A DNA stretch of 64,000 nucleotides from positions 116,636-180,635 of the forward strand of contig VCMS01000169.1 in assembly GCA_022539475.1 (NCBI GenBank). Direction: 5' to 3'. Of this stretch, positions 1 through 48,768 are shown one piece after another (the first letter of the stretch is position 1; every line of letters starts with the position of its first letter). Origin of the DNA: Gracilaria domingensis. Its lineage: Eukaryota; Rhodophyta; Florideophyceae; Gracilariales; Gracilariaceae. Made by a program: the position numbers and the translations under genes. The notes under the pieces were generated by a model that did no database searches, was not told the DNA's origin, and saw only the letters and a program-made list of their open reading frames with translations.

Positions 1-310
1 CGCTGGGCCGAGTTACCTCATCTTCTTGAGGAGCAGAGACAGATGCACGATTTGCATTATCGGCAGTTGACGGCACGACATCGTTCGCTGATCCACGAAT
101 TCTTGACGCAATCCCGGAAGACGCTCCGCTGCGAGATGGGCGAGAGAGTCCTGTAGAAGGACGCCCACTGACTCTCTCCTTCGTCGAGGACGACTTCCGT
201 TTAGGAAGTGCGGTGCTTGTAGCCTGATTCGTATCATCCGATGCTCTTCTCTTCTTCTGTCCACTCTTGTTCCGCTGCGTACTATTTCGCTTTCTCGGCG
301 TTATACCCAT
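1..310 (-). CDS. Basic coiled-coil protein, N-terminal part (copy A, cut by window edge)
   Basis: Reading leftward from the ATG at 308-310 gives an open frame to the window edge. It begins MGITPRKRNSTQRNKSGQK and continues in a Lys/Arg/Ser/Thr-rich segment. It is the counterpart of the 423-residue protein at 52183-53454, where the rest can be read. An upstream ATG at 377-379 also exists, but the G-rich tract between them has changed length, so the inner ATG is preferred. The basic start suggests nuclear location or nucleic-acid binding (inference). Function unknown. Confidence 0.5.
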   Translation of the reverse strand, partial: MGITPRKRNSTQRNKSGQKKRRASDDTNQATSTALPKRKSSSTKERVSGRPSTGLSRPSRSGASSGIASRIRGSANDVVPSTADNANRASVSAPQEDEVTRPS

Positions 311-2140
311 GCTGTGGAGATAAACAGGGTAATGAAACGAAATTGTTGGGGAGGGGGGAGGGGGTGGGGGGGGGTGCATGGTTCAGATATTCCGGGAGAC
401 TCCGCAGTTCCTGCTTTTAGGAATTTGAGGTGCCCAATGGGTCGCAAATATCGCCGTTACAGATGAAGAGCTCCAGTGTACATGTACAACAACGCGTATT
501 GCAGGCAGCTGCAACACTCACAAGCATATTTACTTTCTATTCGCTACTGAACTCATCTATTGCTCCAATGTCAGAGCCCAGTCCAGGCGTACTGCTCTCC
601 GTAGTGAAATACAACTCTTCGCCCCTCTCAATATCTCTTACTGCTCTACAACGAAGTAGAGCATAGTTAGAAAGGTCTGACTTGAACTGTATCACGGACT
701 TCGCTTCCACCACCTGCACATTGGCACTTCGAGTCCTGTTTGACCGGGGCTCCGATAAATCGGGATCCCCGGCATGATATCCGGCGTCGTTAATGTAGCC
801 CCGATACAAAAAGGCGCCGGGACAATGTAGACTTCGCTCTCCTTTCTATCCTGAGCCTGTCCTGGTCTGTTCCTCAGGTGCAGAAACTCCGTACCAGTCA
901 CAGTGACCATCATAGAAAACAACTTGTACCGCACTGGAGTTGCTCCGAGACAGCCACTTCCATACGTTAAGTGTCTTTCCTTCCGGTTCGTCAGATCCGT
1001 GTATACCAAAGTTCCATAGAAATGACAGATAGTTTCCCCAGCCAATATCTTATGTTCCGTGAACACCCCCATACCAGCACGGGGATGTCGAATCTTAGAA
1101 GATGCTACATGTAAGCGATAGCGATTGGCTTCAACAGTCAACAGCATATGCATATCCATAAGATTCAGAGCTCCTCGGTACTTCTCCTCCCAAAGATCTA
1201 CAGTACGCTCTCCACACTTGTCGACAAAGTCCCAGTCCTTCAGTATCTTCCTAGGACTGAGTAATATGTCCAGGCATCACTTGGTACTGGGGGTAACCAA
1301 ATGGAGCCTCCCATTCAAGCCGACCTCGGTCCCGATGTGGAACCCGTTCATAGTCGTTGAAGCCGCATCCACCACCTCCTGTTCAACCAGGATGTCATTC
1401 TCCCCCCCGAATAACTTCGGCCATAAGAGTCGTTAGATGGTGCTTCGCATGGCTGAACATGGCCTATTCTTCTCGCACCCCAAGAACTTCCTATGCTTTG
1501 TCAGCGATAGGCACGCCATACCCGTAGAAAAAGTTCCCGCGAACATGTCCATGACAAGATCACCCGTCTTGTGAAGCGACATATCAACTCCTTCATCAAC
1601 TCCCTGGACTTCTGCTCCGGTCTTATGTACTGCCACCTGGTACTGAGCTACCTGGCTCATGTACCTTCCATGTCAACCACTCCCCCGCCTCGGTTTGGGC
1701 ACCCGGTCAATTACATTCTGTTAGCCGGGAAAGTGAAGGAATGAAATTGTTCTCCTCAAATGGAGTAAGACTGGCTTCCTCGATGGTCGCAATCCACGCT
1801 TCACCCCATGAACGGCGTACTCCGTTACGGGCTGTATCCCAAACTTCCGTGGATTCCCTCCAACATTACTGCGATCCCGGATGACACCAGTGGATTCGCA
1901 TCCACTTTAAACGAAGGCATGAGTTCTGGTTTACCTTCGCTTCCAGCTTCATCTTTCGTACTCGCCGTTTCCGAAAGTATCCTGTGCCACACATGAAACT
2001 GTGCCATGGCACAGAATATAATGAAGTGCCCACCTGACCGAAGCACGGAAACTTATTAAGTCAGCCGTACGATCATGGTCCTTCCTCACTGAGACATCGA
2101 GACCTACTATTCCGTTTGTTCTCTTCTTCGAGTGTCAAAG

Positions 2141-2202
2141 NNNNNNNNNNNNNNNNNNNNNNNNNNNNNNNNNNNNNNNNNNNNNNNNNNNNNNNNNNNN
2201 NN
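2141..2202. other. Assembly gap (62 N)
   Basis: A run of 62 undetermined bases within the copy A methyltransferase gene. Copy B has roughly 75 bases at the matching place, just next to the DPPF motif. Confidence 0.99.
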
Positions 2203-2347
2203 TCGTGTGTGTGTGCCTCAGGTCCTTCCTTGTCACAGTTGTACGCTACAAAGGGTGCCTTTCTCATCTTCCACACGCCGTGTCCATATTCATTGAAGGA
2301 GACTGGAATATCCCTTCATGGGCGCCAATACCAGTCTTCTTGGATGT

Positions 2348-2363
2348 GGGGGGGGGGGGGGGG
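2348..2363. repeat. G16 homopolymer
   Basis: Sixteen consecutive G lie inside the broken methyltransferase gene. Copy B has no such run at the matching place (near 55440), so this is either a local expansion or an assembly error. Confidence 0.8.
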
Positions 2364-2952
2364 TAACCCGGCAACACCGAGATTATGCTCCGCGAAATTC
2401 ACACACGCCTCTCGAAGTCGTCGCCCATCGGAGTCACGAGATCTATACTCACTCTCGACTGAGGTGGGGCTGGGGCAGCATTTGGTCGAAGAAGGTTCCG
2501 CATTACCGAAGTTTTAGGAGTTTCGTCAAGTGTTAATATCGGGTTTCCATGAATGCCCACATTGAACCACTGCCGCATGACGAAAACATACCCTGTATCG
2601 GTTTCCATAGCAACTCGAAAATTCTGACATCGTGCAGGCAACTCACCGGCAGTCAGAACCAGACTACGGTATCCATCCGGCATCTCCGAGAACTCTATCC
2701 AGTTCCTCATCTGATCAAGCACGTCAGCTATAGAGGTTCGTGGGTGCATATGGTTTCGAGGTCTGTCAAAAATTCTTAGCCAGTATTCGGAGGTTTGTAT
2801 CGCATTCATCACTCAAGGTCTTACGATCACTAGTACTGCTCTGTGGCACATCCTGTGTGTTCAATCGAGTACTCTGGCTGGGCGGGGCATACCAGACTCC
2901 GTGTCTCTAGCGCTGTATACTTCAAAGTCTGCATATTCATGTAAATGTATGG

Positions 2953-3674
2953 TTATACATGTGCTGACGTTTGTGTATCCAAGATGACCCGCAAAACAAC
3001 TCCATGCCCATACGACTCACTGATACGAATCCCAGTCGATCATAGTTGTTTTGGAGATTGACGTAAAAGTGGGTATGTACACAGATGGTGCTGGTTCACT
3101 TTTCGTTTCTTTTTCTGTTGTTTCTTTTCATCATTCTGATGTTGTCGTTCTCTCCATTATGTGGCCGAGGTATGATAAGTATCTAACGACCTCAAATGGG
3201 TTCACAGCTGTTGGTGGGATGAACACTGTCGTCTTCAGAACCTGCTTTCTCCTGGTCATGAAATAACCAACCAGGCATCGCCCGGTAGGTATATACCCAT
3301 ATCCATAGAGAGAAGGAAAAAATGCGGAGTCTCTGGTCCTCATCCCGTCTTCTTGTCAAGAAGCTTCGTTACAAGATATCGTTGTTCCACAGGTTTGTTA
3401 TTCACAACACTCTTTCGCAGCTGTTGCAGTGTCAAGTTCTGCAGGTTCTTGGAGTTAGTGGCTCCTCAAACATCTTCCTTGCTCCGGAATATCCTTATAG
3501 TTCTCGGCGAGAACTCTATTAGCCTCTAAACCCACGTCCCGTGGCGGATCAGGGCTCCATCGTGTCTGCCAAAGCATCGCGAAGAACCAAGAAAAGTCTG
3601 ACATATGCATGGAACGCGGAGGGGGAGCATCATGTCGATAAGATGTATTCCTCTCCATCATCGGTGGAATCCAT
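2953..3674 (-). pseudogene. Homologue of the 247-aa leftward protein, broken (copy A)
   Basis: The matching intact frame is 56029-56772. The start ATG is complementary to 3672-3674, and the terminating TAA (complement 2953-2955) is shared by both copies. Fragments such as FMTRRKQVLKTTVF and NPFEVVRYLSYLGHIM (about 3140-3280) are readable, but several one-base indels split the frame. No domain recognised. Confidence 0.6.
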
Positions 3675-3689
3675 CGCTTCATCGCAAAC

Positions 3690-3782
3690 AACGAGGCGAA
3701 CCTTTAAATGGCACTTACGCTAGGCACCCCGCTTTCGGCAGCTCCTCCCAGCGCACTGCCAGTCTCGTCCGTGTCCGTGTCC
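3690..3782 (-). promoter_or_regulatory. Leftward core promoter, left arm of a promoter inverted repeat (copy A)
   Basis: This stretch is a near-perfect inverted copy of 5129-5222, the upstream region of the rightward gene. It contains a TTTAAA box at 3703-3708, about 30 bases before the leftward start codon (3674). The conserved block holds the pieces GCGTAAGT, GCCATTTAAAG and GAGACTGGCAGTGCGCT. Promoter function is inferred from position and conservation. Confidence 0.55.
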
Positions 3783-3930
3783 ACTCGGTGCGATAGCGTC
3801 GCGTGTCGGCCACGTCGCGATTCGGAGCTATTGCAAAGGTCGCGTATTGTGCTAAAAGTCGCGGATCAAGTGGGTGTGAAGCGCTAGTTTTTTCTAGTTT
3901 GATATATGTGCACGGCGTGTGCAGCGAAAT

Positions 3931-4110
3931 CACTGCCGGAAGTGCCGGAGGAGTGTTTTGGGAGGCCTCCAGAGGGTGCCAGAATGTGGCTAGAACGTGC
4001 CGCGGGCGGGGGGGGGGTCAGTCGTGTTAGGGTAGGTACCCTAACACGACCGGACCCCCGCCCGAGGGCATAAAATCGCACATTTTTCAAAAAATCGCCC
4101 AAAACGTGCG
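3931..4110. repeat. Half of a GC-rich foldback palindrome (A1)
   Basis: It contains an arm with GTGTTTTGGGAGG and CCAGAATGTGGC, a G-run, the short palindrome CGTGTTAGGGTA/TACCCTAACACG (about 4023-4053), and a core reading GCATAAAATCGCACA then TTTTTCAAAAAATCGCCC. The second outer arm seen in copy B (57066-57395) is missing. The core runs in the opposite orientation to the matching palindrome in copy B. Confidence 0.75.
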
Positions 4111-4214
4111 GAATCAGTGACCGAATCTGTACTATCAGTGGTTCCCACCTGTTCTAAACACGCTGGCAGCAGTATAATGCACCAGGCTGTTGCAATTGTG
4201 CAACATGGCACTTG
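4111..4214. repeat. Spacer block inverted relative to copy B
   Basis: This block, from GAATCAGTGACCGAATCTG to CAACATGGCACTTG, matches the reverse complement of 58021-58121. It lies between the two foldback palindromes in both copies, but in opposite orientation. See findings. Confidence 0.75.
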
Positions 4215-4386
4215 CAGGGGTTGGTCCAATCCGATTGCGAGAAATTGCAATCACCCTTCCCTCTGCAATCGCAATTGCAATCTCCCTCACGTTTTCAATC
4301 GCGATTGCAATCATCTCTCTCCTTCGCAATCACGAATGCGATTGGGAGTATTTGTGCAATCGCATCGCAATTGCAATACAACGTAG
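4190..4386. repeat. Degenerate GCAATTGCAATCGC repeats
   Basis: About a dozen overlapping occurrences of GCAATC, GCAATT and CGATTGCAAT in both orientations form a simple, nearly self-complementary array. Copy B has no such array in its spacer, so it was gained in A or lost in B. No coding capacity is credible. Confidence 0.7.
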
Positions 4387-4610
4387 ATCTGGCAGCTCTC
4401 GTTATGTTCTACATTGTATGTTTAACTCTACGCTAATCTCAAACATAATATGAGAGTGTAGAGAAAGCTTTGTTTACGTACGAATAACTTTAGAACGGCG
4501 CTGTTCCGGATGTGGTGATCGCAGAGAGAGTAGGTGTGGTGCGCGTGGGAATTAGGGAGCGTTTGCGGGATGGAGAAGACGCGTTGGTGCATTGAGGTGA
4601 CGCGGTGGGT

Positions 4611-4912
4611 GCCGGAAGTGCCGGGAGGAGTGTTTTGGGAGGTCTCCGGAAGGCGCCAGAATGTGGCCAGAACGTGCCGCGGGGCGGGGGGGGGGTCGGT
4701 CGTGTTAGGGTAGGTACCTAACACGATCGGACCCCCGCCGCGGGCACGTTTTGGGCGATTTTTTGAAAAATGTGCGATTTTATGCCCGCGGGCGGGGGGG
4801 TCCGGTCGTGTTAGGGTACCTACCCTAACACGACCGACCCCCTCGCCCGCGGGCACGTTCTGGCCACATTCTGGCGCCTTCCCGGGACCTCCCAAAACAC
4901 GCCGCCCCGCAG
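4611..4912. repeat. Complete foldback palindrome (A2)
   Basis: The left arm (GTGCCGGGAGGAGTG, GGCGCCAGAATGTGGCCAGA) and right arm (TCTGGCCACATTCTGGCGCC, CCTCCCAAAACAC) are inverted repeats. Each arm contains an inner palindrome CGTGTTAGGGTA/TACCCTAACACG next to a G or C run. The central asymmetric core (ACGTTTTGGGCGATTTTTTG to CGATTTTATGC, about 4746-4783) is flipped compared with the matching palindrome of copy B at 58241-58568. Confidence 0.85.
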
Positions 4913-5128
4913 TGATTTCGCTACACCCGGCCGCCGGTACGTTGGCGCCGCTGTCCACGTGTATTGGCGGGAGTAGGTTGTACATGAAAGTGAATGAGTG
5001 TACTCTTGACTACTATGCAAAGCATTTGAAGAGCACGATTAGAGAGCGCGACCATTGCTCGCGTGAGTGATCATTGCGCGAACTCCACGACTCTAAAGCG
5101 TACAATCAGCGTGCGAGCGGCCACGGAC

Positions 5129-5222
5129 AGGACACGGACGAGACTGGCAGTGCGCTGGGAGGAGCTGCCGAAAGCGGGGGTGGCCAGCGTAAGTCGCCAT
5201 TTAAAGGCTCACCTCCGTTCTT
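5129..5222 (+). promoter_or_regulatory. Rightward core promoter, right arm of the promoter inverted repeat (copy A)
   Basis: Inverted copy of 3690-3782, with a TTTAAA box at 5200-5205 about 80 bases before the ATG at 5282. Similarity to the other arm falls off sharply outside this block, so the two divergent genes share only the core promoter stretch. Function inferred. Confidence 0.55.
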
Positions 5223-5281
5223 GTATCGTCCAGAGCGAGCGTATTGTTGATATACAAATTTCACTGCAATAGGGGTTCAAC

Positions 5282-6160
5282 ATGAAGCCAACTCGTGTTA
5301 GAAAGCGTACGCAAAGCGTGACTCCTCGCACTCGGCGGAGCACTCGATCATTGCAAGGTGGAATGCGGGTTTCTCTGCAGATGGATATTGAGAATGAAGG
5401 AAAGGTGATAGTCGGGGAAGCGTTGTTGCATGGAATTGGAAGTGTTCTACGCCGCGAGTTGAACGGGAAGCAATTGGACCCAGGTCTTGTGGTGGTTCAT
5501 AATACTCTCATCAGTCGAAGCGGTCACACGTTCTACCCTTACCGGGCGGAGGGCTGGATCTTCCACAATACATCCAGGATCTCCGGACGGCCGCTCCTTG
5601 GGATGAGAAAATGATGGAACCGGTGGCAGCCAGCATTCCGCGGCCAAGCGACGAACGGTGAGTGCTATGAGTGAGGTGAGGACGCCGACAAGCCGCACGG
5701 AGCCAATTCGAAGTTCATCAACACCGAGAGGTAGCGCATCAGTAGCACCTCCGCGGGCAGGTCCGTCGTCTTTTATGAAGCGGTCTATGGAGACGAGAGC
5801 ATCCCCAGCTACGAAGCGACAGGTCAAACAAAGTCTACCTCCGCTACGAAGCCCACTGCGTCGAAAAGGGCATCTCCTGCGATGAATCAGACCGTCGACA
5901 CAAGGGGATCTTCTGCGTCGAAACAGACGGTTCAGCACGGGACGGCTGTGCAAGAAGAGGAAGATGAGATCATAAAAGGTCCCTTCCAGACGCGGATGCG
6001 CAATCCGCACAAGGAGCTGGTCCATCTGTACCCAAACTGCACCAGAAACTGCGGAGCAGCAGGACGATGACGTTGTGCTTCTGTCCGCAAGAATGGCACG
6101 TTCAAGTTTTCTGGCGAGCGGTCTGGAACACAAGGGACACCTACTCGGAGCAAGAGGTAG
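5282..6160 (+). pseudogene. Small basic, S/T/P-rich protein (copy A, frameshifted)
   Basis: ATG at 5282. The N-terminus is strongly basic (MKPTRVRKRTQSVTPRTRRS), followed by a compact segment (MDIENEGKVIVGEALLHGIG), a long Ser/Thr/Pro/Ala-rich linker and an acidic patch (QEEEDEIIKG). The frame breaks near 5550 and again near 5620-5880, but the original end is the TAG at 6158-6160, which is shared by both copies. Copy A keeps CGA at 5649-5651 where copy B has a TGA stop. The basic tail suggests binding to DNA or chromatin (inference). No known domain recognised. Confidence 0.6.
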
Positions 6161-6208
6161 AGACGAATTCGTCAGAAGGTACCAATCGTGAACCTCAATC
6201 AGTACCGG

Positions 6209-9189
6209 ATGGTTGTTGTTACTGTTGACATCACTCTGGTGGACACTCCGCCCAATTTACTCCGTGGAGTAATTAAACGTCACGGTGAAGCCCTTGTGAA
6301 GAGTATGGAGGAGCAGGGGATATTGCAGTCGATGGGTTCTCCAGTGGTGGCCTTACAAGATGCTACTGCGGGAGAGAGGGATACTGACAAGGGACGCCTA
6401 ACGAAGAAGTGCTTCATTGTAGATGGTTTGCATCGTCTGAAAGCTATACAATATTTGGCAGCGACTGGTGCACCGAATTGGAAGCGATTAGCCAGGTTTT
6501 GGCGTTGCAATCTGCTGATACGAAGAGATGGGAGGCCCATTGGGATGAAGGAATTGTTATGTGTTGCTTCGTACCTCAATGAGTCGAGGAGTACCATGCG
6601 AAGGATGATGTTTGCGGACAAGATACACTCTATAGTTAGTGTGTCGCCATTCTAATTGAAGATGTTGAGGGGTGACGCCAGCAGACGTGGATCCTGCAGA
6701 AGGGACAGAAGTGTTGAAGGAGAGCCAACTGAATGGGACTGTGCAAGAGCGTCAGTATCTGAGATATGCCAATGTCGCCCTGCAACTCATGTCTCGTGAG
6801 GGAATGCTGGCCCATTTCGAGGATATATGTGAGAGTGTGAGTGACATAGGTCTCACACCTCTGTCCCATACTCCGCTATATGTTTTGGATGCCGAGGAGT
6901 TTTCCTTCATTCTAGACTGTCTTCAGATGTTTCTATTGAAGCGCAAGTCGACGAAGACAAAGCAATGGAAACGCTTTGAGGAGGTTCGAGGTTTCTTTTA
7001 TGATAGAGCAGTGTCTCTGTTCCGCGCGGCTCGAGCAGTGAGGAATGAATTGAACGAGGAAGAGTCGATGGAAGTGTTCCTGAAACGCGAAATCAGTCTG
7101 TCTGCTCCATCGAATGAAGATGACGTTGAAGACCCAGATAACAACGCAGCTGTGAATCAGTTCCTTTTGGGACAAGTTGTGAACTTCAACACATTGCCGC
7201 GTGTTCGGAGCAGGATGAACTCAATTAGAACTGCCACGACATCCGTTCAAAATCGATTGCGGACGATGCTCAAGTTAATTCCCCCCCGCACCAGTGAAGC
7301 AGTCCGTGACGAAGAGGAGGACTCCCGCTGCTGCTGCTGCAACATCTGCCAGTGAAGAAGGGGAGCCGCGAAGAAGTGCACGAGAACGGGCGCAGGTGAG
7401 TTATAGGGAAATTGAGCACGGCCGAAATCGAGGTGCCATAGAAGTTCTGGATAGCTCTGAAGAAGAACAGCGGGCTCCGCCGAGGAAGAAACGGAGAAAG
7501 GCTTTCACACAACAGATGAGATCTACTCTGAACAGCATGACACCGGATGACCTGATGTCTCAAATAAATGAACATGTGCTGAGAGGAAGGTCGATGAAGG
7601 TTCAGTTCATGGCATTGGAAGAGGGAGCGAATGCAGAGAACGCAGGCAGTTCTGCATTTGTGGATGACGAAGAGCTTCTTGATGTGACAGTTCCACGGGT
7701 TGTCACTGTCGAGAAAGATGCTGCGCCAGACGATCAGCAAGAGACAGGTGGGGGGTCATTTGATGACGAGTTACCTACAGCTCTTCAGGAATCTGAAGAG
7801 CACGGACTTGTTCGAGGAGACCCATATGATGGCCCACCGAACCCATCATGGTGCGGGTATGTCAGGCTGAGACCGCAAGAATGGCAAGGGAAGAACATAA
7901 TTGAGCACAAGGACCCCTAGCTCAGAGTCATTCACTTGCCGAAGGCACATAGGTCGGAGCTGCTAAGTGTCTCAGATCTCAGAGATGTACACCATCTTGT
8001 CTTTTGGCACGCTGCAAGGGCTGAACATCGCCTACGGGCGGAGACATTTGGTATGCAGTATCCTCGTACTCGGCCGACAGGTATGGATGATGAAGAGGTG
8101 CTGTGGGTTGCTGCGAAGGAGCATGACGAATTTGGGCAAATGTTCTTCGCCCGAATGCAAGCTGAACTAAGGCAGAATGGATATTGCGTGCTTGATGGCT
8201 TTGCGACGGATAATGGTGTCTCTAAATGGGAGGAGTGGGAAGAAGTTCGGGAGTTCGGAGATGTGTCGGGGAAGTTGGTGGAATTCTTCGAGAATGAGTA
8301 TGGAGCGATGCAGGATATACCGAAAGGGGAGGAACAGAAGTCGTTTGTTCAAATCATCATCGATGATGAAGAATGGAAGGACCGGAGCGATGGACCATTT
8401 GAGGGGAGAGTGATGTCGACACGTTGGGGTACGGTGGAGAAGCCGGAGGATAATGAGGAGCTCAGGTGGGTTGTAAGATGGCGTGCTTTACTTGATGTTC
8501 GAATGGGTACAATTGCTGCGGCTTTGGGACTATGGGACAGTGAAAGGGAAGCTGTGAAGATGTACACTCCGAAAACTGGTGGTCGATTTCTGGGGACCAC
8601 GAGAAAGTGCAAGCGCCAGACGCTGCACACCGACCTCAGTGGTCTGGTTACGAAGGAAACAATGAATACTGGTAACCCCGGATACTTTTTAATGGCCTCT
8701 GGGAAAGAGCGCTTTCCTCTCTGGGTGAGCGCTGGAAGCCATCAACTGGTGGGGATGAACAACCAACAGTTGCGAGTGATGTCGGAGGTGTATCCAGCGA
8801 AGAAGATAATCATCCCACCGTACTCTGTATTCGTGGGCCGTGGTGATGTGACACATGCTGGAGCAAGTGGGAAGGACAAGGTGGATAGGCTCGAGTCTAT
8901 GGATTTGCTGGTTAGATACCACATGTACATGGTACCAGAGGGCTACGCACTACCTGATGCTGTTCATCAGGTGCAGGATTTCCGACCCACGTTTGTCAAT
9001 GGTGACGAGGAGGAGGAGGCGGAGGATGAACTGTTGTCCGATAAGGAGGGTGGAGCGGTTGACATGGAAGAAGACCAAGTGGTCGTGGAGATTGGTGTGG
9101 AAGCGGACGCCGGTAGAACCGAAGTGCTCGAGAGTAGTAGTGATGACGATTTGCCAATAATGAGGCTGCGAGCGCCTCGAAGTGGATGA
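6209..9189 (+). CDS. ParB/Srx-like plus 2OG-Fe(II) dioxygenase-like protein (copy A, nearly complete)
   Basis: The first ATG of the open frame is 6209-6211. Residues about 20-130 resemble the ParB/sulfiredoxin-like fold: KRHGEALVKSMEEQGIL, then FIVDGLHRLKAI at about residues 69-80, like the GxHR motif of that family. A helical middle and an acidic/basic linker follow. The C-terminal part (7936-9189) has a double-stranded beta-helix dioxygenase pattern: the metal-binding HTD at 8626-8634, LWVSAGSHQLV, the distal His in GDVTHAGA (8854-8856) and a following Arg-rich strand. Single-base deletions near 6642 and 6675, a shift near 7280 and TAG at 7918-7920 (TGG in copy B) interrupt it; otherwise it is about 990 residues. 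The substrate is unknown; base or chromatin oxidation is a guess from the neighbours. Confidence 0.7.
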
Positions 9190-9504
9190 GAATGAGATGA
9201 TTAGTAAATTATGAGTGTCTTGCGAGTATTAAGAGTAGTATACTATTGCAAGGCTATACATATGAACATGGAAAAGGTGCGGCAGGCTGGTAATTGAACA
9301 AATGTCATACGTCTTTGGTCCAGTTTCGTCTAATTGCAACATGCCACATGCTCGGTATCGTTAACATCATTGGTGGCACCATTCAATTCGCAATGAAACA
9401 TGTAGCGTCCTAACACTTCTGAAACTGCACTTAAGGTTGCTTTTAAGAGAAGTAGGAAACTGAGAAGTCTATGCAGTGCCTGTCTGTGTGGTACTTGTGG
9501 CACC

Positions 9505-10365
9505 ATGGTGACTGTACCAGGAAAAATGGCAGAGGAACAGAGAGACTTGGCGGAAATTTCACCTAATACCTTGTCTAAGTTCATATATGCCAATGGTTAC
9601 GGTATATTAAGTTCCGTTGATGGAACGTTGAGAAGAGAAGGAGAGTCAATTCCAGAAGAAGTTGTGAAGTGTATGAAGTTCATTGACGAACGTGTTGGTT
9701 TCGGACTTGTCACAAGGGGTGATGTGGGCGACGTGGAGCGGAAAATGGAAGGACTCGGAGAGTTTAAGTTTGGTGTGTCGGCGAATCATGGAGCTTTCCT
9801 CCGTTTCTCTGACGAGAGGGAAATTAAGGCTGCATTCAATGATCACACCCTTGACCACACTGTTGACGGACTACTGTTCCTGGCAAGGGATTTGAATAGG
9901 AGGCATGGTGTTGCGAATGATGATTTGAAAGGGTTCGTGGAGAGCAGAAGTGATAATGGCCTTCCCAATTTCGTGTACAACAAACTGTGGCAGTGGAGAG
10001 AAGAAGTGGATTCTGCTATTGGGGACCTGTTGCAGAAGATGGATGCGTTTCTTATCTATCCTGGCGATAAAAGTTGCGAAATTGTGGACAAGCGATACAC
10101 AAAAGGAAGCGGAGGAGCAAATCTTGTGGATAATGAACCGAGATTTATTGATACGGATGACGTCGTGACGTTCGGAAGTGCTTTGAGCGACGGGCCTTTG
10201 CATGAGGTAGGCGTGTACGGCGTTCACGTCAAAGAAGATTGTATCCCGGGTGGAGTACACAACCTGTTCGAAAGCGTGGAGGATTTACATTCGACGATTA
10301 TGTTGGTGGCTCTGTTGTACGGCTACGAGGAAAAGCGGCACGATAAAAACCACCATGATTCATAA
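9505..10365 (+). CDS. HAD-like (trehalose-phosphatase/Cof type) protein lacking the nucleophile
   Basis: ATG 9505, 286 residues. The layout follows HAD phosphatases: motif I region GILSSVDGTLRR (residues 33-44), a substrate-cap segment, ANHGAFLRF resembling the NGA loop, and a motif IV-like stretch TFGSALSDGPLHEV followed by GVYGVHVK, as in OtsB-type enzymes. The first Asp of motif I (position 37) is Ser, and the first Asp of motif IV is also Ser, so phosphatase activity is doubtful. It is convergent with its paralogue at 10418-11290, only 52 bases apart. It may be a regulator or a decayed copy. Family assignment is by motif reading only. Confidence 0.6.
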   Translation: MVTVPGKMAEEQRDLAEISPNTLSKFIYANGYGILSSVDGTLRREGESIPEEVVKCMKFIDERVGFGLVTRGDVGDVERKMEGLGEFKFGVSANHGAFLRFSDEREIKAAFNDHTLDHTVDGLLFLARDLNRRHGVANDDLKGFVESRSDNGLPNFVYNKLWQWREEVDSAIGDLLQKMDAFLIYPGDKSCEIVDKRYTKGSGGANLVDNEPRFIDTDDVVTFGSALSDGPLHEVGVYGVHVKEDCIPGGVHNLFESVEDLHSTIMLVALLYGYEEKRHDKNHHDS

Positions 10366-10417
10366 AAGGGTATTGAGATATATACGACACTTTTATTACT
10401 GAGATCTCATATCCTAG

Positions 10418-11290
10418 CTAAGTATTATAGGCATCGTAGCACTTGAAACAAATTCCAAGAGCATTTCTAAACCATTGACACTTGCATTTTCTGTACCCGT
10501 ACAGTTCTGCCACCCTTCTGATGGTCTCATGCACGTCCTCCACCCCATCAACAAGATATGTTACCGCTGCTGGAGGGTCGTCTCCCTTCACATGAACCGC
10601 CAGGGTTGCCATTTCATATAGAGGGCCATCATTGGAAGCATTCCCGAAAGCAACGATTAAATGTGTGTCGAACTGGGGGTCGTTTTCAACCAAGGCTAGC
10701 GCCCCACTGTTTTTCGTGAAACGAATGTCCCCTATGTCACAGTTTTCATCTTGAGGGTACGCAACCAGGTTCGGAAAGGATGTCAACACTTTTGAAATAC
10801 CGGAGTTAACTTCTGTTTTCCACTTCGACAGTCCATTGTACGTGAAGTTAGGGAGTCCACTGTCTTTTCTAGTGCTCACAACTGCTTGTTGACGCTCTTC
10901 GTGAAGTCCGTGCGATTCATTTAAGGAGAGTGCAAGTCTCTCAAGTTCGGCTGCACATCTTTCGTAGCCTTCCCTGTCAAGGTCCTGATCAATTTCGGTA
11001 CCATTGGATAATCTCACCCGTGCGCCTTGGTTTCCAGAGATGCCAAAAGTGTAGCCACCCAGGTGCTCCATGAAACTCTCGGCATCCTCTATATCTTGCC
11101 CAGTAGCAATTCCGAAACGAACGCGTGCATTGATGTACTTCATGCATTTGACTGTTTCGGCAGGAATGTTCTCCCCAGCTCTTTTCAGAGTACGGTCAAT
11201 ATCACTAATGACGGCGTAGCCATTTTCGAATATTTCGTTAGCCAGCTGCTGAGGAGTTACTTCTTGGGCTCTAACTTCTGAGTTATACAT
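10418..11290 (-). CDS. HAD-like (trehalose-phosphatase/Cof type) protein
   Basis: The ATG complementary to 11288-11290 is chosen; the frame extends upstream only to a GTG. 290 residues. It is clearly paralogous to the gene at 9505 over its whole length. Motif I is SDIDRTLKR (Asp 30 and Asp 32 kept, Gly changed to Arg), followed by GISGNQGARVRL, FTKNSGALALVENDP and AFGNASNDGPLYEM with LAVHVKG, resembling the C-terminal part of OtsB-type phosphatases. The motif IV Asp is Asn. A phosphosugar phosphatase is plausible; the substrate is unknown. Confidence 0.6.
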   Translation of the reverse strand: MYNSEVRAQEVTPQQLANEIFENGYAVISDIDRTLKRAGENIPAETVKCMKYINARVRFGIATGQDIEDAESFMEHLGGYTFGISGNQGARVRLSNGTEIDQDLDREGYERCAAELERLALSLNESHGLHEERQQAVVSTRKDSGLPNFTYNGLSKWKTEVNSGISKVLTSFPNLVAYPQDENCDIGDIRFTKNSGALALVENDPQFDTHLIVAFGNASNDGPLYEMATLAVHVKGDDPPAAVTYLVDGVEDVHETIRRVAELYGYRKCKCQWFRNALGICFKCYDAYNT

Positions 11291-11916
11291 GTTTTGAAAG
11301 CTTTCGAAAGGGTTCGTTTTGCAAATGGGTATGGGTATACGAATGAGTAGGATGTGATTGATGTTCACAATGTGTTTCGTAGTATAAAAAGAGTCTAAGA
11401 ACGACCATATGCGGGTATTGTAGTACTGTTTTAAAACGTTACTACGACGAGAAGCTTTTGCATCGATTTGCAGTAAAGAAAGGATGATTTAGTCATAAAT
11501 TATATGTACGGGTTCAAGTGGGTAAAGAAAACTATGAATTTCTTCAACATAAGCTTAGAAATCAAGATCAGTAAAACAACCTCCATTAAGGGTTGAAACC
11601 CATAAAAGGTTTACCTTACTTTATACGGGTGCCCCAAGTATTGCAAAGGCTTAGTTCTTCAGAAATATCACAATTTTGTACTTGTTTCCTTACTAGTATC
11701 GTGCACTTTAATGATGCGGAATGACCCTTTTCCATCTAGCAAAAACTTAGCCAGGTATTAGTGATAAAGGATGTAGGATTTAAAGGGGCATATTTGAACC
11801 ACAGAAGGACGAACAATATAACTAATATAATAGGAACAGGTCATTTCGATAAAGTAACTTTTATGTTTAACTATCTCTAAAAGGTTTACAACACCGAAAA
11901 GTCATGTGTTCTAACC

Positions 11917-12819
11917 TCAAAGCTGGGGGAATGGGGAGGGGGATAGCTTTTCCTTAACAACGTTGACGTAGTTTGTATGAAAAGAAGCGGGGTCACCGCC
12001 TACGATGTTTCTTTCTTGGCGGGAAAAATCGTAGAAGTACGCGTTCCTAAACTGAAAGTCGGAGAAAGAAGTAGGGAAGCCAACAAGAGTTTTCCCATAT
12101 GCAAGAAGTCGCCCAACGGTCTCTTCCAGGTTGAAAGTAGTACCTGTCTTAAGCGAAACTATCTTCAACAGCTCTTTCATTATTGTGAGCACAACCGTAC
12201 TGCACTCCGTAGCGACTACGTCCATGGGAATGAAACCTCTTGAGGCCCCGACGATGTTGAACGCTGATAGCCACACGAGCTTCTCATAATAGCTTACGAG
12301 AAATGTGTCTTCGTCGACAACCCCGCAAGTGAGACCCATAGACCTAAACCTGTCTGCAACGTTGGAGGCCCACTTTCCTCTTGCGACAGTGAGACCATCT
12401 GGACTTTCAGGAGTGACACCATCCTGCGGAGCTGCGTTTCTTGAGGGGACAACAACGTATAGGACAACTTTTGAACATTTGTCCACACCGAGCTTCGAAA
12501 CCAATGGTATGATGTCTCCATTCTGGAAGAAAACGAGATTCTCTCTGAGCGAATAAGGGCAAGCCTGAATTACGGTCTCCAGGGTGTTCGTTCTTCCACA
12601 AACTAGTATCGGTACATCAGAAAGATGAGAGGTAGCAGCCATGCTGCAGAATTCGTGTGCGGAAATGACCATATCTTCTTCGTTCGCCAGCATGGTACCT
12701 ATACGCCCCCTTCCAACAATAACAGCCCGAGTCCTTCGGGTGGGAGATGAGGCCTGAGGGACGTCAGAGTATCTGGGACTCGGAGGCGGAGTCGGAGGGA
12801 TGTCGGACTGGGAGTTCAT
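11917..12819 (-). CDS. NAD(P)-binding, ketopantoate-reductase-like protein
   Basis: ATG complementary to 12817-12819, 300 residues, intact. After a Pro/Ser-rich start it has a Rossmann entry strand with a glycine-rich turn (RAVIVGRGRIG, about residues 32-42). Next come a strand naming the cofactor-binding fold (VPILVCGRTNTL), then KVVLYVVVPSR and a C-terminal segment YEKLVWLSAFNIVGAS, which resembles the helical domain of ketopantoate-reductase/6-phosphogluconate-dehydrogenase-like proteins. The catalytic role is not established. It is divergent from the epimerase gene at 13283, with about 460 bases between that must hold both promoters. Confidence 0.55.
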   Translation of the reverse strand: MNSQSDIPPTPPPSPRYSDVPQASSPTRRTRAVIVGRGRIGTMLANEEDMVISAHEFCSMAATSHLSDVPILVCGRTNTLETVIQACPYSLRENLVFFQNGDIIPLVSKLGVDKCSKVVLYVVVPSRNAAPQDGVTPESPDGLTVARGKWASNVADRFRSMGLTCGVVDEDTFLVSYYEKLVWLSAFNIVGASRGFIPMDVVATECSTVVLTIMKELLKIVSLKTGTTFNLEETVGRLLAYGKTLVGFPTSFSDFQFRNAYFYDFSRQERNIVGGDPASFHTNYVNVVKEKLSPSPFPQL

Positions 12820-13228
12820 TGCGAGTGTTCGATTGTTTTTGTGTGACGATAGAAATGGAAGATGGGGCGGAGAACTGCTGGGGTAAAGAGTGATATTTAA
12901 CTACAAACGGTTGGGAAGCGGAGAACGGGAACATGGTTCACCTTGTGAAAGTGAGCGAAATTTATGATATGTGATTGTACTGAATGGATGGTAGGGCTTG
13001 TATGAGACGACAAGCCACAAAGTGTGATGATGCTTTATGAAAAGTAGGTGGAAGTAGAAAGTGTACAACGAATGAAACTGATTTCGAACCTGAGTTGTAA
13101 AGTAGTTGTAAAGTACGAGTTACGGGGAGCTTGAATACAGGATGAAAGGAGCCATTTTGGCTTCATAAATGACGTGAACGGGTTCTATAGCTTCACTCGG
13201 ATTGCCATAATCTTCTTTTTTATTGAGG

Positions 13229-13236
13229 TATAAAAG
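13229..13236 (+). promoter_or_regulatory. TATA box of the epimerase gene
   Basis: TATAAAAG lies 54 bases before the ATG at 13283, in the divergent intergenic region. Spacing suits a start site near 13260. Confidence 0.6.
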
Positions 13237-13282
13237 GGGGGTGTGTCTGGGAAGGACGGGTTTGGCGTTACTGAAGTTATCG

Positions 13283-13995
13283 ATGTTCAGTATGGAGTCT
13301 CGTTTAATTATAGCGCCATCAATTTTGGCTTCAGACTTTGCTCGCCTTTCAGATGAAGCGAGTGCAATGGAAGAGGCTGGAGCGGAGTGGCTGCATATAG
13401 ATGTAATGGATGGTCATTTTGTGGCGAACCTTACTGTTGAACCGCCTGTTGTGAAAGCGTTGCGGAGGCATACGAAATTGTTTTTGGACTGTCATCTGAT
13501 GGTATCAGATCCTGGGCTCTGGATAAAAGACCTTGCAGAAGCAGGCGCAGACGGAGTCACATTTCATATCGAGAGTGTGTCTAAGGGACTAGAAAAGTGC
13601 GAGGTACCAACTGAGGAGGAGAACGTGGTGTTGAAAAAATTATGTAACCGAATTAAAAGGATGAGAATGCAGGTTGGAGTTGCGTTGTGTTGCGCCCGAA
13701 TACGTCTATAAAGGTCGTAGAAGCACTTATGAAAGAAGGAGTTGTAGACATGTTATTGTTGATGACGGTGGAGCCAGGGTTTGGAGGACAGGCGTTTATA
13801 GGGGGTGTTCTTGATAAGGTGCGACATGCAAGGGAGTTGTACCCAAGAATAGGGATACAGGTGGATGGAGGTATTGGACTGAGTACTGTGAAAGGAGTAG
13901 TGAAGGCCGGTGCAAACATTTTAGTTGCAGGATCTGCCATCTTTGGCTCGAGTAACCCAGCTCATGTCATAGCTGGTTTTCGAAAGGTTGGTTAG
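13283..13995 (+). pseudogene. RPE: Ribulose-phosphate 3-epimerase, interrupted by a 5-base insertion
   Basis: It interconverts ribulose 5-phosphate and xylulose 5-phosphate in the pentose phosphate and Calvin cycles. All family signatures are present: IIAPSILASDFARL at the start, HIDVMDGHFVANLT with its metal/catalytic Asp, LDCHLMVSDP, TVEPGFGGQAF, and QVDGGIG with the second catalytic Asp. The start is 13283 (or 13292, MESRL), directly before the APSIL motif, so there is no targeting peptide and the protein is probably cytosolic. At about 13686-13690 five extra bases (GTGTTG context) shift the frame between VGVAL and RPNTS; without them the protein is full length. Either a real mutation or an assembly error. 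Confidence 0.85.
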
Positions 13996-14060
13996 AGATA
14001 GTAGCATAAAATTATTGTTTATTACATTGTTACCTTTACGTGTTATCACGACTATATTCT

Positions 14061-14399
14061 CCATCTCTATTGGAGATGTATTTTTCTAGTGTCACAACCG
14101 GGAAAGGATGTGAGAGAACATCAATATATTCCCAGTGGATGTTGAGAGGGAGGATGAACTACTCTACGTGCTATCATTATTATACCTCCGGTGTCGAGTG
14201 GTGACATATTCTTTTTTTGTCACAACCTAAAAAGGATGTGACAGAAGAAGAAGGTGCCCCCACTCGAGACGGAGGGTGAGCTACTCTAAGTACAATCACT
14301 AGTCCCCAGCTTGCCTCCACTGGCGATATCTTCCTGTTTTGCAATAACCACCGATTGAGGTTATGGCGGAAGAGAAAAATATCGCCGGTCGAGGCGAGG
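14061..14399. repeat. Three tandem units, each a long imperfect hairpin
   Basis: Hairpins at about 14061-14153, 14185-14275 and 14309-14399 have arms of about 40 bases. The inner stem is GTCACAACC/GGATGTGAC in the first two and AATAACC/GGTTAT in the third. The units are separated by a repeated linker (GAACTACTCTACGTGC, GAGCTACTCTAAGTAC), giving a period of about 123 bases. They lie between the epimerase and the next gene. No protein is encoded here. Confidence 0.75.
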
Positions 14400-14635
14400 T
14401 GGGTGAGGACTATGTGAGCGCGAAAGAGGGGACAGAGGGGTGGCGCTTAAATAGTGGAAGGTGCGGAGGTGTGCAGTAGATGTTTTGGCGGGAAATGGGA
14501 TGAGGGAAACAGGAACAATCATGGTGCTGGATATAGCCCGTGTGGTTGGACAGTGGGGGTGGACAGCACAGTTTAGCTCGATTGCTCTGTATCGCAGCGG
14601 AAACTTCGATCCAACTACTACTTCTTCTTCTAAAG

Positions 14636-15565
14636 ATGTCGAACGGATACGTGAAGGATGAGGAGCTGTTGGCGCTGTTAGAGGGGAAAGAGGTACCGCC
14701 GACGCCGTCACCAAAGCGGGAAGAGGACTTGATTACGGCGGCTGGTCGGATGTCGCAGAAGAAGGAAGTCGGCGATGAAGAAAAGAAGTGTGAGGCGAGG
14801 AGAGGGGATGGTGATGAGGTAGAGAAGGGTGTAGAATTGGAGGTGGAGGGGGTCGCAATGGAGAGAAGGGGTGCGGTGCATTTGAGTCAGTTAGAGGTTG
14901 GAGACCAGATAGAGAGTGGGGGCGGAGAGGGTGACAAGGAGATGCGGTTTGTGGGGGAGATGAAGGCGAGGGTGGGGATGTTGGGGTTGGTGATGAAGGA
15001 GCGACTGGACGATGGAATTGTGGAGATTGTAACGGAAATGGGCGGTGTGGTGCTGAGTGGGGGTGGTAGTGGTGTTTCGGTTGAGGCGATTTCGAGCCTG
15101 CGGAATTCGTTGTCGGTATTGGGAGTGGAGATGAGGAATCATGTGTATGGGATAGTGGAGTGTGCGGGAAGGGAGGTTGGAGAGTTGCGGGAGGAGAATA
15201 GGGTTCTGAACGAGAGGTTGGACGTGCTGGAGAAGGAGGTGAAGGAGCTGGGCAAGAGGCAAAGATTGGTGGAAGAGGAGACGGTGAAAGGAGGTGTGGA
15301 GGGAAAGACGGAGAAGGGAAGTGTGAGAAGGGTGGTGGTGCAGAAGGGGTCCCCTGTGACACCGAAGACAAAGGGTGGTGGGGTTGGGGATGGGAAGAGC
15401 CGTCTGAAGAAGAGGCGTAAGGAGATGGAGAAGGTGGTGGAGGAGGTGCCGCGGGAGGGAGTCGGAGCTCCGGTGTTGACTGGGTTTAGGAGTGCGGCGG
15501 AGGTAGCGCGGACTGCGAAGGGGATTATGAGGGGACAGGAGGAGAGAAGGATGGGAGGGATTTGA
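14636..15565 (+). CDS. Hypothetical coiled-coil protein
   Basis: The ATG at 14636 (MSNGYVKDEELLALL) is preferred over an upstream GTG; 309 residues. The composition is Glu/Lys/Gly/Val-rich. A clear heptad region is REENRVLNERLDVLEKEVKE (about residues 188-207), then a basic segment (SRLKKRRKEMEKVV) and a conserved-looking end (TGFRSAAEVARTAKGIMRG). The strong G-over-C bias of the coding strand leaves long open frames on the other strand. It may be a host gene or a gag-like relic of the element that follows. Function unknown. Confidence 0.45.
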   Translation: MSNGYVKDEELLALLEGKEVPPTPSPKREEDLITAAGRMSQKKEVGDEEKKCEARRGDGDEVEKGVELEVEGVAMERRGAVHLSQLEVGDQIESGGGEGDKEMRFVGEMKARVGMLGLVMKERLDDGIVEIVTEMGGVVLSGGGSGVSVEAISSLRNSLSVLGVEMRNHVYGIVECAGREVGELREENRVLNERLDVLEKEVKELGKRQRLVEEETVKGGVEGKTEKGSVRRVVVQKGSPVTPKTKGGGVGDGKSRLKKRRKEMEKVVEEVPREGVGAPVLTGFRSAAEVARTAKGIMRGQEERRMGGI

Positions 15566-15949
15566 AACCGTTTTGGGGCGAGGCGGGTATACGAGAAAGG
15601 GGAGAGTTGTCCACCTGACTTCTACAAAATGAACGCGTGATGGGCGAGAAATGGGTAAATAGGGGGGGTGATGTGGACTGGGAAGAAGTGATGGGATGAT
15701 TGAGGTGGAATGAGTTGCGATTGGCATTGCAACATGGGAGAAAATGGAAACGCAAACTAGCACGAGTGCAGTTTTGAGAGAGGGTCGCGGAAAAGAGTAA
15801 ATGGGGTGGTGCAGCAAAGTAAAACCTCTGCGAAAACTAGAGGACCCAAGAACTAAACTGCGCGACATGGAATTTAATATTCCAAAATTTCTTAACTTTT
15901 TGAGTGCCAGCCTCTGCCACCCCCTCGCGGACCCCAAATATCCCCAAAA
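15566..15949. other. No gene seen between the coiled-coil gene and the gypsy remnant
   Basis: About 380 bases without a credible frame or recognisable repeat. The 5' part of the gypsy element (LTR, gag, protease, most of the reverse transcriptase) is absent, so its truncation point lies near 15950. Confidence 0.5.
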
Positions 15950-16006
15950 CTAGCTTAGTTTCCAAAGCGAACAGACTATATTCCACTTTGCAGAACACAG
16001 ACGTCG

Positions 16007-40594: not shown

Positions 40595-41760
40595 TCAATC
40601 TTCACAATCCAAAGGAGCGAGCAAGTCACGCAGGGTGATTCCGCCAAAATCTATTTCCAAGTAGTTGAATTCGTGATTGTAGACTTCGTAGTCCACCACG
40701 ATCGGCATTGCGAGAGCACCCTGAGGGTCATTTTTCTCGATCCTCAGGTTATCCGGTTGCTCATGGTAAAGCCTGAGCCTCCTTGCATGGATGCCTCTTC
40801 TGGACATGCGGCGATGTGGAGAGATCAAAAAGTAGCGCGGATGACTACCGCGTATGATGCGACAAGTGCCATAGAACTTAGAAACAAACGGTGGCCACTT
40901 GATCGACGGATTCATAGCTTCACCACGCATGACAAGTACCTGATCTCCAACTGAAAACCTGTGTCCATATCGTTCATCATTTTGACGGGCTACTTGCCTG
41001 TCGACTCGAGTAGCTCTTCCCACGGTAGCTGCTTCCACTTCTGTGAAACGATTTGCGTCTGTGGCATCGGGGATCAGAGGAGGGAAGTCCGTACGGTGCA
41101 TACGAGGACGCGTCTCGTAGAAAATCTGAAAGGGTGAGTACCCTTCGGACATCCTACGAGTCCTGTATCCGTACAGCACGTCATATAGTGCTTCGTCCCA
41201 GTTTACTTTCCTTTGATGAATGATCTTGCCAATTGCTATCTTAGTCGTTCCGACCATTCTTTCTGCGCCTCCGTTTGAGACAGGGACATATGCTAGCACC
41301 GGCTTCAGTGAGATGCCATGCTTTCTCATGTACTGCTGAACGGTGGCTGCAAAGAAAGAGGTTGCGTTATCAGAGACGATCGTCAGAGGGTGACCGAAGG
41401 AACCGACTATCTCTTGTTGCACAAACCTCAAAACTTCAGAAGCGGTCGCGTTCTTTGTAGCCAGTGCTATAGGCCATCCAGTCAAGTGTTCTTCTCCGAT
41501 CAGAAGGAATCTGTTTCCACAGCTCGTAGGCCGAAAAGGTCCCATCAAAGGCGATAGAAAATGTGTCAAACACATTAGTGAGAGGAGCCTGTTGGCGGGC
41601 ACGATAGGAGAGAACATTTCCCATGAACTGACAGCCATTGCAACTCTTGACGTATTTGGTGACCTCAACGCGCATAGTAGGCCACCAAAATCTGTCCAAA
41701 AGATGCCTCCTGGTGGCTGCCACGTCCCAGTGTCCAATCTTCTGTCTCTTGCAGATGCTA
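40595..41760 (-). pseudogene. Ty3/gypsy integrase, leftward, frameshifted
   Basis: The zinc-binding part (RFWWPTMRVEVTKYVKSCNG with CQFM) and the first catalytic block (FDTFSIAFDGTFSAYE) are in one frame (41436-41723). After a shift near 41540 the second frame has IVSDNATSFFAATVQQYM with the catalytic Asp and VPVSNGGAERMVGTTK with the catalytic Glu. It then runs to a C-terminal RFSVGDQVLVMRGE and a non-chromodomain tail ending at 40595. A purine-rich tract on the minus strand (complement of CTCCCCCACTC, about 40179-40190) could be its polypurine tract. Confidence 0.8.
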
Positions 41761-41990
41761 GTTTTTGGCGAGGGTCGTCCAGTAAATTTTTTGAAAAAAT
41801 ATCATTATCAATTATTTCAAAATTTGGAGATAATTGCTTGGTTCTTCTAGAATCGCTGTGCAGTAAATACTGGTGGGTTTTTCACTCGTGCTAGTTCTTT
41901 AGTCGAGGGTTACCTGAACGGTATTTCGTGAAGTCTAGGTTCAGTTTCCATTAAGGTGCACATTACACGATACCTTCTCCGGAATGATAC

Positions 41991-42507: not shown

Positions 42508-42508
42508 T

Positions 42509-42520
42509 TGGTAGCATCGC
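42509..42520 (+). promoter_or_regulatory. Primer-binding site
   Basis: TGGTAGCATCGC begins two bases after the 5' LTR. TGG pairs with the CCA of a tRNA, and the start resembles the methionine-tRNA-type site of many gypsy elements. The exact tRNA cannot be named without the genome. Confidence 0.6.
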
Positions 42521-48197: not shown

Positions 48198-48232
48198 ACA
48201 TCTCCGGGCCCAGTAACCACCCATCACCAACA

Positions 48233-48745: not shown

Positions 48746-48768
48746 CGAGTCGGGACGACTCTCCTTAA

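Follow-up and report, generated by a model that had tools for sequence, protein, structure and literature searches.

What is known of transposons fighting silencing with DNA-modifying enzymes of their own is an outline drawn from fungal TET carriers and plant VANC. Among the described systems, the closest are the Plavaka elements, members of the CMCT clade whose target duplications measure 2 bp (PlavakaA) or 2-3 bp (PlavakaB) (PMC12730594), and precedents for epigenetic cargo include TET genes in fungal transposons and SET genes in HarbingerS and MuDR (PMC12730594). In the 64,000-nt window analysed here, a stretch of contig VCMS01000169.1 of the red alga Gracilaria domingensis, two divergent gene pairs represent the middle parts of two damaged copies, A and B, of one large mobile element, located about 53 kb apart, and this element is a large Plavaka-type DNA transposon. 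It combines a bacterial-type DNA amino-methyltransferase and a histone-methyltransferase domain in one protein, situated beside a candidate DNA-binding/oxidising fusion protein and accompanied by more than 1,000 palindromes. Coordinates are given as positions within the window, genome searches cover the 77.9 Mb assembly of 680 contigs, and labels such as C296 denote its contigs or the copies on them.

Like fungal Plavaka elements, including the TET-carrying PlavakaB, the red-algal element features a Plavaka transposase, a 2-bp target duplication and an accessory enzyme possibly acting on DNA marks (PMC12730594). In contrast to the fungal termini TGT..ACA or CATCA..TGATG, it ends in CGTCTGT...ACAGACG; it also differs from the TET-carrying forms in its red-algal host, its length of up to about 22.9 kb, its palindrome arrays and the methyltransferase-SET and ParB-like/HxD fusions that replace the TET/JBP gene (PMC12730594). 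As its termini differ from both, the element is Plavaka by transposase and duplication, yet neither PlavakaA nor PlavakaB. No TET/JBP domain was found among the Pfam or NCBIfam matches listed and no such chain among PDB sequences, although a remote TET kinship may exist, given that the fungal PE type, too, was visible only by structure-based comparison (PMC12730594). The giant repeats of Amoebidium are likewise Plavaka, but reach up to 50 kb and carry tyrosine-recombinase genes, and a methyltransferase-SET protein is absent from the available part of their description (PMC11244446). HarbingerS and MuDR of Phytophthora share with our element a SET histone-methyltransferase gene, but belong to other transposase superfamilies, and the available portions of that report mention no DNA methyltransferase joined to SET (PMC12730594). 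The titles and abstract openings among the papers listed contained no prior red-algal Plavaka or methyltransferase-SET transposon, and a paper on Gracilaria sex chromosomes mentions neither Plavaka nor CACTA (PMC12502185); an earlier record is possible, as Repbase and most subscription papers lie outside this scope.

A large Plavaka family with short inverted ends

The earlier note had taken the paired genes for an element and knew of no described eukaryotic element with these genes. An element it is, but the note had overlooked that it is a Plavaka transposon with terminal repeats and 2-bp duplications, a large family, a longer gene set and palindrome arrays. The transposase open reading frame (ORF) at 50593-52257 matched the Pfam Plavaka family PF18759 with E 1.9e-13 and 50.8 bits (cut-off 26.3; in all profile searches, most matches above E 0.1 were filtered out). 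Genome-wide, a 1100-aa open frame was matched without any stop at 41 of 84 scored places, and the motif KFHLLDHL was identical in all six fetched copies. Judging by its family, this enzyme very likely acts on the 15-bp ends and mobilises the element by cut-and-paste.

Comparison of ten copies, picked non-randomly for long open frames, with the two window copies revealed a right boundary common to nine copies, while two further copies end earlier, and a left boundary common across copies once deletions were corrected for. A left end near position 817 of C81 was rejected, as deletions in that copy had faked a boundary and the real end lies several kb outward. The family termini are imperfect 15-bp terminal inverted repeats, alike in 12 of 15 bases, that read CGTCTGTCTCTTGCA at the left end and CGTCTGTGTTCTGCA at the right end. 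Such ends number about a thousand in the genome: a pattern covering both of them gave 522 and 501 exact matches, and the reversed pattern 2 and 0.

A 2-bp target-site duplication was present at ten of ten picked facing end pairs 9-15 kb apart (CA, TA, GG, TG, CG, AC, TA, GT, TT, AA), at one of three pairs more than 20 kb apart (TC) and at one of six pairs assigned by their expected spacing (C16, TT), which amounts to 12 of 19 end pairs, where chance would yield about 1 in 16. The unmatched expected-distance pairs (C29, C81, C361, C383, C69) may join ends of separate insertions, and for C49 and C2 the right end was not found within the fetched stretch. Reading the terminal CG itself as the duplication was rejected, because the ten pairs show varied 2-bp duplications outside the element and two nested insertions indicate that the terminal CG is element sequence.

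The family has far more than two members, with the C-terminal ORF of the plus-strand gene scored at no fewer than 99 places (680 candidates). Among the matches listed, the longest end-bounded copies measure 22.8-22.9 kb (C5, C23), and both contain HAD-like gene 2 and a PF01555 match, C23 also the transposase. From left to right, the longest form comprises the transposase (+), a basic coiled-coil-like gene (-), the methyltransferase-SET gene (-), a divergent spacer, the ParB-like/HxD fusion gene (+), two HAD-like genes (+ and -), a ketopantoate-reductase-like ORF (-), a ribulose-phosphate 3-epimerase gene (+) and a coiled-coil-like gene (+).

Viral insertions can also be large and contain methyltransferase genes, which counts for the possibility that the stretch is an integrated virus or a virus-derived element. 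The Plavaka transposase, the short inverted ends and the 2-bp duplications argue against this, no capsid or packaging gene occurred among the profile matches of the element ORFs searched, and weak scans of viral and of prokaryote contigs, with two peptide patterns each, confirmed no relative of the ParB-like/HxD fusion. A viral origin is therefore extremely improbable.

The features of copy A are as follows.

1..16003, + (the strand on which the transposase would be read): copy A of the element; similarity to other copies ends at 16003, and the left end lies outside the window, other copies extending leftward beyond window position 1 relative to copy A
557..3673, -: methyltransferase-SET gene, degenerate; references from other copies mapped, in which PF01555 and PF00856 are found
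3727..5179, no strand: divergent promoter region, so named from its position; perfect 50-nt inverted repeats at 3727-3776 and 5130-5179
4024..4047, no strand: palindrome GTGTTAGGGTAGGTACCCTAACAC; repeat and pattern search
4808..4831, no strand: palindrome GTGTTAGGGTACCTACCCTAACAC; repeat and pattern search
5282..9189, +: ParB-like/dioxygenase-like fusion gene, frames broken, two stops; 96.3% match to the 1308-aa open frame of C296
6203..6510, +: ParB-like segment with the motif VDGLHRL; motif-level, conserved in P0004, no significant profile match
8185..8965, +: dioxygenase-like segment with HTD at about 8626, distal H at about 8854 and R at about 8914; motifs only
9406..10362, +: HAD-like gene 1; PF08282 E 0.017 and HAD-IIB E 0.0045, both under the cut-off
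10421..11488, -: HAD-like gene 2; PF08282 E 1.9e-10 (over the cut-off), HAD-IIB E 7.3e-10 (just under the cut-off)
11917..12900, -: ketopantoate-reductase-like ORF; named from reading the sequence only, no Pfam or NCBIfam family among the matches listed
13211..13998, +: ribulose-phosphate 3-epimerase gene, probable passenger; PF00834 E 1.2e-33
14537..15562, +: coiled-coil-like gene adjoining the right end; no significant family
15989..16003, -: right terminal inverted repeat, CGTCTGTGTTCTGCA on the - strand; exact 21-mer match, 0 by shuffles, shared right boundary

Copy B comprises the following features.

41739..64000, +: copy B of the element, extending past the right edge of the window, with a long terminal repeat (LTR) retrotransposon inside; alignment to other copies
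41739..41753, +: left terminal inverted repeat CTTCTGTCTCTTGCA, differing by one change from the family sequence CGTCTGTCTCTTGCA; shared left boundary
41991..49297, +: Ty3-type LTR retrotransposon within copy B; 517-bp LTRs 99.4% alike, duplication GATAC, PF00078, PF17917 and PF00665 in 45013-48009
50716..52265, +: Plavaka transposase gene with an internal deletion of about 2.9 kb; PF18759, deletion by comparison with C60
52263..53457, -: basic coiled-coil-like gene left of the methyltransferase, truncated; mapping to other copies
53634..56772, -: methyltransferase-SET gene with in-frame stops and a frame break; match C169:170912-173437 with one TGA and one TAA
57162-57185 (two mismatches), 57272-57295 (exact) and 58465-58488 (one mismatch), no strand: divergent-promoter palindromes; pattern search
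58941..62866, +: ParB-like/dioxygenase-like gene, broken; mapping to other copies
63084..64000, +: HAD-like gene 1, cut by the window end; mapping to other copies

A 62-base run of N at 2141-2202 lies inside the methyltransferase-SET gene of copy A.

Two divergent genes and their palindromic spacer

The back-to-back arrangement of a minus-strand methyltransferase-SET gene and a plus-strand ParB-motif/HxD gene, from which the earlier note had started, is present in both window copies. The span given there for it, 3674-9189, takes in the spacer and the plus-strand gene, whereas the methyltransferase of copy A lies outside, at about 557-3673. Elsewhere in the genome the two genes also stay adjacent, as 17 of the 54 scored methyltransferase places have a divergent dioxygenase ORF within 10 kb; at one place the orientation differs, and at 36 no partner appeared among the matches listed, including window copy B, whose partner exists. 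Of the four domains named from the sequence, profile searches recovered the methyltransferase and SET, but neither ParB nor the 2-oxoglutarate (2OG) dioxygenase, which stand on motifs only.

The methyltransferase part matched PF01555 with E 2.6e-14 and 54.1 bits (cut-off 26.7) in another copy, P0001, and with 7e-10 for the window piece. DPPF precedes FAGT in its sequence, the order of the beta class of amino-methyltransferases, and the motifs LTDPPFN and DMFAGTFSTG were identical in six of six and five of six fetched copies, respectively. The nearest solved sequences are the adenine enzymes DpnA (5hek, E 5.7e-7) and CcrM (6pbd, E 2.6e-5), and a protein search with this part gave no match at E<=0.001. 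For SET, an intact copy elsewhere in the genome matched the entire PF00856 profile (positions 1-105; E 3e-8, 34.5 bits, cut-off 22.4), while the broken window pieces score only 0.06-0.08; its motifs were identical in 5/6, 5/7, 5/7 and 6/6 fetched copies. Methyltransferase and SET are both confirmed by profile, and a stop-free open frame of 1055 aa covers the methyltransferase-SET protein at 9 of 54 scored places. As the nearest solved sequences, KMT2A/MLL, reach only E 0.006, a histone target cannot be assigned to the SET domain. Bdelloid N4CMT is comparable in that it combines, in a eukaryote, a bacterial-type N6_N4 amino-methyltransferase with a chromatin domain, but it is a host gene with a chromodomain and SPPY, whereas here SET and DPPF occur in transposon cargo (PMC8885841).

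Methyltransferase matches in C163, C591, C28, C211, C182 and C323 end at residue 773, owing either to a homopolymer error or to a frame break that these copies share. A 1838-aa open frame of C211 was rejected as a new C-terminal fusion, since the methyltransferase frame breaks near residue 773 and SET continues in a different frame. A third, divergent methyltransferase-SET fusion was observed as open frames of 1169-1170 aa at three places on contig C382 (10484, 36683, 110684).

Searching the genome for PF01555 gave at least 150 scored places, all over the cut-off. A second methyltransferase type, defined by matches from profile position 1 to 216-220, accounts for 31 places, and a second transposase type, with a range near 106-317, for 46 Plavaka places. 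Twelve of the 31 have a second-type Plavaka transposase within 10 kb, while 19 have none among the matches listed; all twelve pairs are convergent, with spacings of 5.5-5.9 kb in eleven and 8.0 kb in the twelfth. Because a second lineage repeats the pairing, the association of Plavaka with a beta-class methyltransferase is unlikely to be a single accident.

The fusion gene on the plus strand is stop-free over 1308 aa in two of the 99 scored places (C81, C296). Its name is motif-level only, in both the ParB-like and the dioxygenase-like part. Among the fetched copies, VDGLHRL was identical in 9 of 11 and LHTDF in 10 of 12, with both window copies differing in the latter but retaining H and D; GSHQL (12/12), GDVTHAG (11/12) and LVRYHMY (12/12) were conserved as well. 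The pattern HxD-GSH-H-R resembles that of phytanoyl-CoA-type dioxygenases. In P0004, a relative with 38% identity on a 6,846-bp contig, the VDGLHRL and HxD...GSH segments are kept, and the relative ends before the distal H and R.

A profile search with the fusion alignment gave only two Gracilaria gene models among its matches, and the fusion protein of a sister copy matched two gene models of G. domingensis with 94 and 89% over 73% of the query. The gene models P0002 and P0003 of this species, which bear the names 'mediator of RNA polymerase II transcription subunit 15-like' and 'SasA (LPXTG motif)', omit the HxD segment; the public annotation of the alga thus presents parts of the element as ordinary proteins of host or bacterial type. 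Of the 99 scored dioxygenase places, 14 on the plus strand and 1 on the minus strand begin within 3.3 kb of a contig start, which may mean that contigs break in the palindrome-rich spacer.

The spacer of copy A is bordered by perfect 50-nt inverted repeats and contains repeats of the palindrome GTGTTAGGGTANNTACCCTAACAC. Five matches to this palindrome (up to three mismatches) occur in the window, all in the two divergent spacers, and none in shuffles; the genome contains 1,115 exact sites of the 24-bp sequence and none of the reversed control. For typing, 40 of 50 listed sites were used, located in five contigs of known length, ten sites in C3, C7 and C12 being excluded. Inside elements with exact ends, which make up 6.0% of these five contigs, lie 31 of the 40 sites; the binomial p of 3e-30 overstates independence because the sites cluster, often about 110 bp apart, and counted by cluster the figure is 11 of 15. 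At least one exact palindrome was present in 11 of 13 end-bounded elements, and in ten of these it lies at a distance of 4.8-6.0 kb from the left end. The array thus seems to belong to the core of the family, also in its shorter copies.

Some bacterial transposons are known to be under Dam-type control, and the methyltransferase of the element is similar to adenine enzymes of bacteria, CcrM among them. Together with the second lineage, which keeps transposase and methyltransferase together, this favours a base modification that serves transposition itself, through post-replication timing, target choice or end protection, instead of escape from silencing. Such a role would leave SET and the palindrome arrays of the spacer unexplained, and we consider it unlikely.

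Possible selection on the cargo and a proposed anti-silencing role

Pairwise amino-acid/silent ratios among the fetched copies were 0.48 for the methyltransferase, 0.53 for the coiled-coil gene, 0.58 for SET, 0.62 for HAD-like gene 2, 0.63 for the transposase, 0.67 for the left gene, 0.68 for the ParB/HxD gene and 0.90 for HAD-like gene 1, compared with 1.07-1.18 for the ketopantoate-reductase-like (KPR-like) ORF and 1.37 for ribulose-phosphate 3-epimerase (RPE). For eleven segments in 6-12 copies, changes shared by at least two copies, presumably dating from the spread of the family, were compared with private changes, presumably later, in one-sided tests. The ratio fell from 0.74 (private) to 0.10 (shared) in the transposase (p 0.0002, based on just 4 and 13 changes of the shared kind), from 0.57 to 0.26 in the methyltransferase (p 0.012, nominal) and from 0.82 to 0.50 in the ParB/HxD gene (p 0.02, nominal), which suggests purifying selection on these three genes. 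The cargo enzymes seem, on these sequence comparisons, to have stayed functional during the spread of the family, although this is not proven. Contrasts were not significant for the KPR-like pieces (p 0.48, 0.41) and RPE (p 0.21). HAD-like gene 2 was scored at 114 or more places in the genome with 95-100% identity, nearly all of them open, and its selection contrast is not significant.

The metabolic genes RPE and KPR-like look like passengers, and the cargo as a whole could consist of host or bacterial genes that were captured and multiplied without use to the transposon. This is in line with the ratios of 1.07-1.37 for RPE and the KPR-like ORF, with the partial deletion of RPE in three of five aligned copies (only its 3' part is left in c329, c79 and c241), with stops in many copies of all genes, and with cargo contrasts that are not significant after multiple-test correction. 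Against it stand the ratios of methyltransferase, SET and ParB/HxD, which lie near that of the transposase, with shared-change ratios nominally below private ones, the motifs, which are mostly kept, the persistence of the ParB-motif/HxD fusion in the 38%-identical relative, and the second Plavaka lineage with a beta-class methyltransferase of its own at fixed spacing. Overall, we judge it unlikely that the cargo is idle.

We infer that the methyltransferase-SET and fusion genes form one DNA/chromatin modification system, as the earlier note had proposed, a reading backed by the selection signal (weak after correction), the motif conservation, the fusion in P0004 and the second Plavaka lineage. 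In our estimate, there is about an even chance that the element directs these enzymes to its own chromatin and thereby resists silencing. The cargo would then most likely keep the element's own chromatin open. The spacer, judging by its position, presumably acts as a shared divergent promoter, and the ParB-like part would bind its palindrome arrays; the fused dioxygenase-like part, brought to these arrays, could remove or oxidise a repressive mark, while the methyltransferase-SET protein, expressed from the same promoter, might write a base mark, N6-methyladenine (6mA) or N4-methylcytosine (4mC), and a histone-lysine mark over the element. The outcome would be sequence-targeted anti-silencing, akin to that of VANC in VANDAL elements but built from enzymes; VANC has no known enzyme domain. 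A likeness to the Arabidopsis system lies in repeated target sites in noncoding element DNA, on which an element-coded factor is proposed to act (PMC5735166, PMC10398659), the targets of VANC being tandem repeats (PMC10398659). VANDAL, in contrast, is a MuDR-type element, and here both the repeats and the candidate protein are known from sequence alone. Across eukaryotes 6mA goes with permissive chromatin and is laid by MT-A70 enzymes, not by beta-class ones (PMC12695648); the text of that paper contains no 'red alga', 'rhodophyt' or 'Gracilaria'. A complete self-targeted writer/eraser, in which the ParB-like part loads on parS-like arrays in the promoter and brings the dioxygenase with it, and one protein writes both DNA and histone marks, is possible, if doubtful.

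Several observations weigh against an anti-silencing role of the cargo. Both window copies are decayed, each with two in-frame stops in the methyltransferase part, two in the ParB-like/HxD gene and broken reading frames. Profile support for ParB is sub-threshold only (phrog_3264 E 0.0085, PF03235 E 0.089), with no Pfam ParB family listed and no match of this part among PDB sequences; for a 2OG dioxygenase, nothing was found among the Pfam, NCBIfam and PHROG matches listed or among PDB sequences, and the predicted structure models are of low confidence, with a mean predicted local distance difference test (pLDDT) score of 43.5 for the ParB-like and 30.6 for the dioxygenase-like part. In the rate tests, whose copies were chosen for long open frames and not randomly, the decrease for SET from 0.62 (private) to 0.20 (shared) was not significant (p 0.065), and neither were the contrasts for the left gene (p 0.15), the HAD genes (p 0.096 and 0.23) and the coiled-coil gene (p 0.10); after Bonferroni correction over eleven segments only that of the transposase stands. 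The transposase motif FEPLHNLHLG was identical in only two of five fetched copies. A clear sign of 5-methylcytosine (5mC) as a substrate for an eraser is lacking, because the excess of private transitions at CpG is weak (35 on 488 CpG bases against 106 on 1,937 other C/G bases) and the observed/expected CpG ratio is about 0.9. The long end pairs C23 (CG/TC) and C5 (TA/CA) have no matching duplication, so that the form of about 22.9 kb can only be presumed to be full length, and, as the 9-15 kb copies have clean duplications, the main mobile form is not necessarily the longest one.

An amino-methyltransferase can also aid silencing, as N4CMT does in rotifers, where this fusion of an amino-methyltransferase with a chromodomain adds 4mC at active transposons (PMC8885841). 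By analogy with such marking of bdelloid transposons, the methyltransferase-SET protein could act as a brake that lays silencing marks and limits the copy number of the family. Because the genes sit within the element, selfish aid fits better, and although self-limitation is conceivable, we regard a brake as quite unlikely.

If the element does carry a complete self-targeted writer/eraser, it would give a transposon an epigenetic identity system of its own, and at least the methyltransferase part of this system would be found in two Plavaka lineages within one alga. The element offers a natural case for studying how a mark gets aimed at one repeat family, and it suggests a route for non-5mC base methylation into eukaryotic genomes. 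The presence of 6mA or 4mC in a red alga becomes directly testable by long-read sequencing.

Nested and neighbouring insertions

As its LTRs are 99.4% alike, the Ty3-type insertion of 7.3 kb in copy B is recent. Further Ty3-type pol fragments, with an RNase H and a sub-threshold integrase match, abut the right end of copy A (15959-16936) and the left end of copy B (40598-41881). Between the two copies, a fragment of a Copia-type reverse transcriptase was detected at 24585-25517 (RVT_2, E 1.7e-16), and a DUF6570 match (E 3.9e-8) with neighbouring ORFs of low G+C content at 34393-35844, a stretch which we take to be possibly a Helitron.

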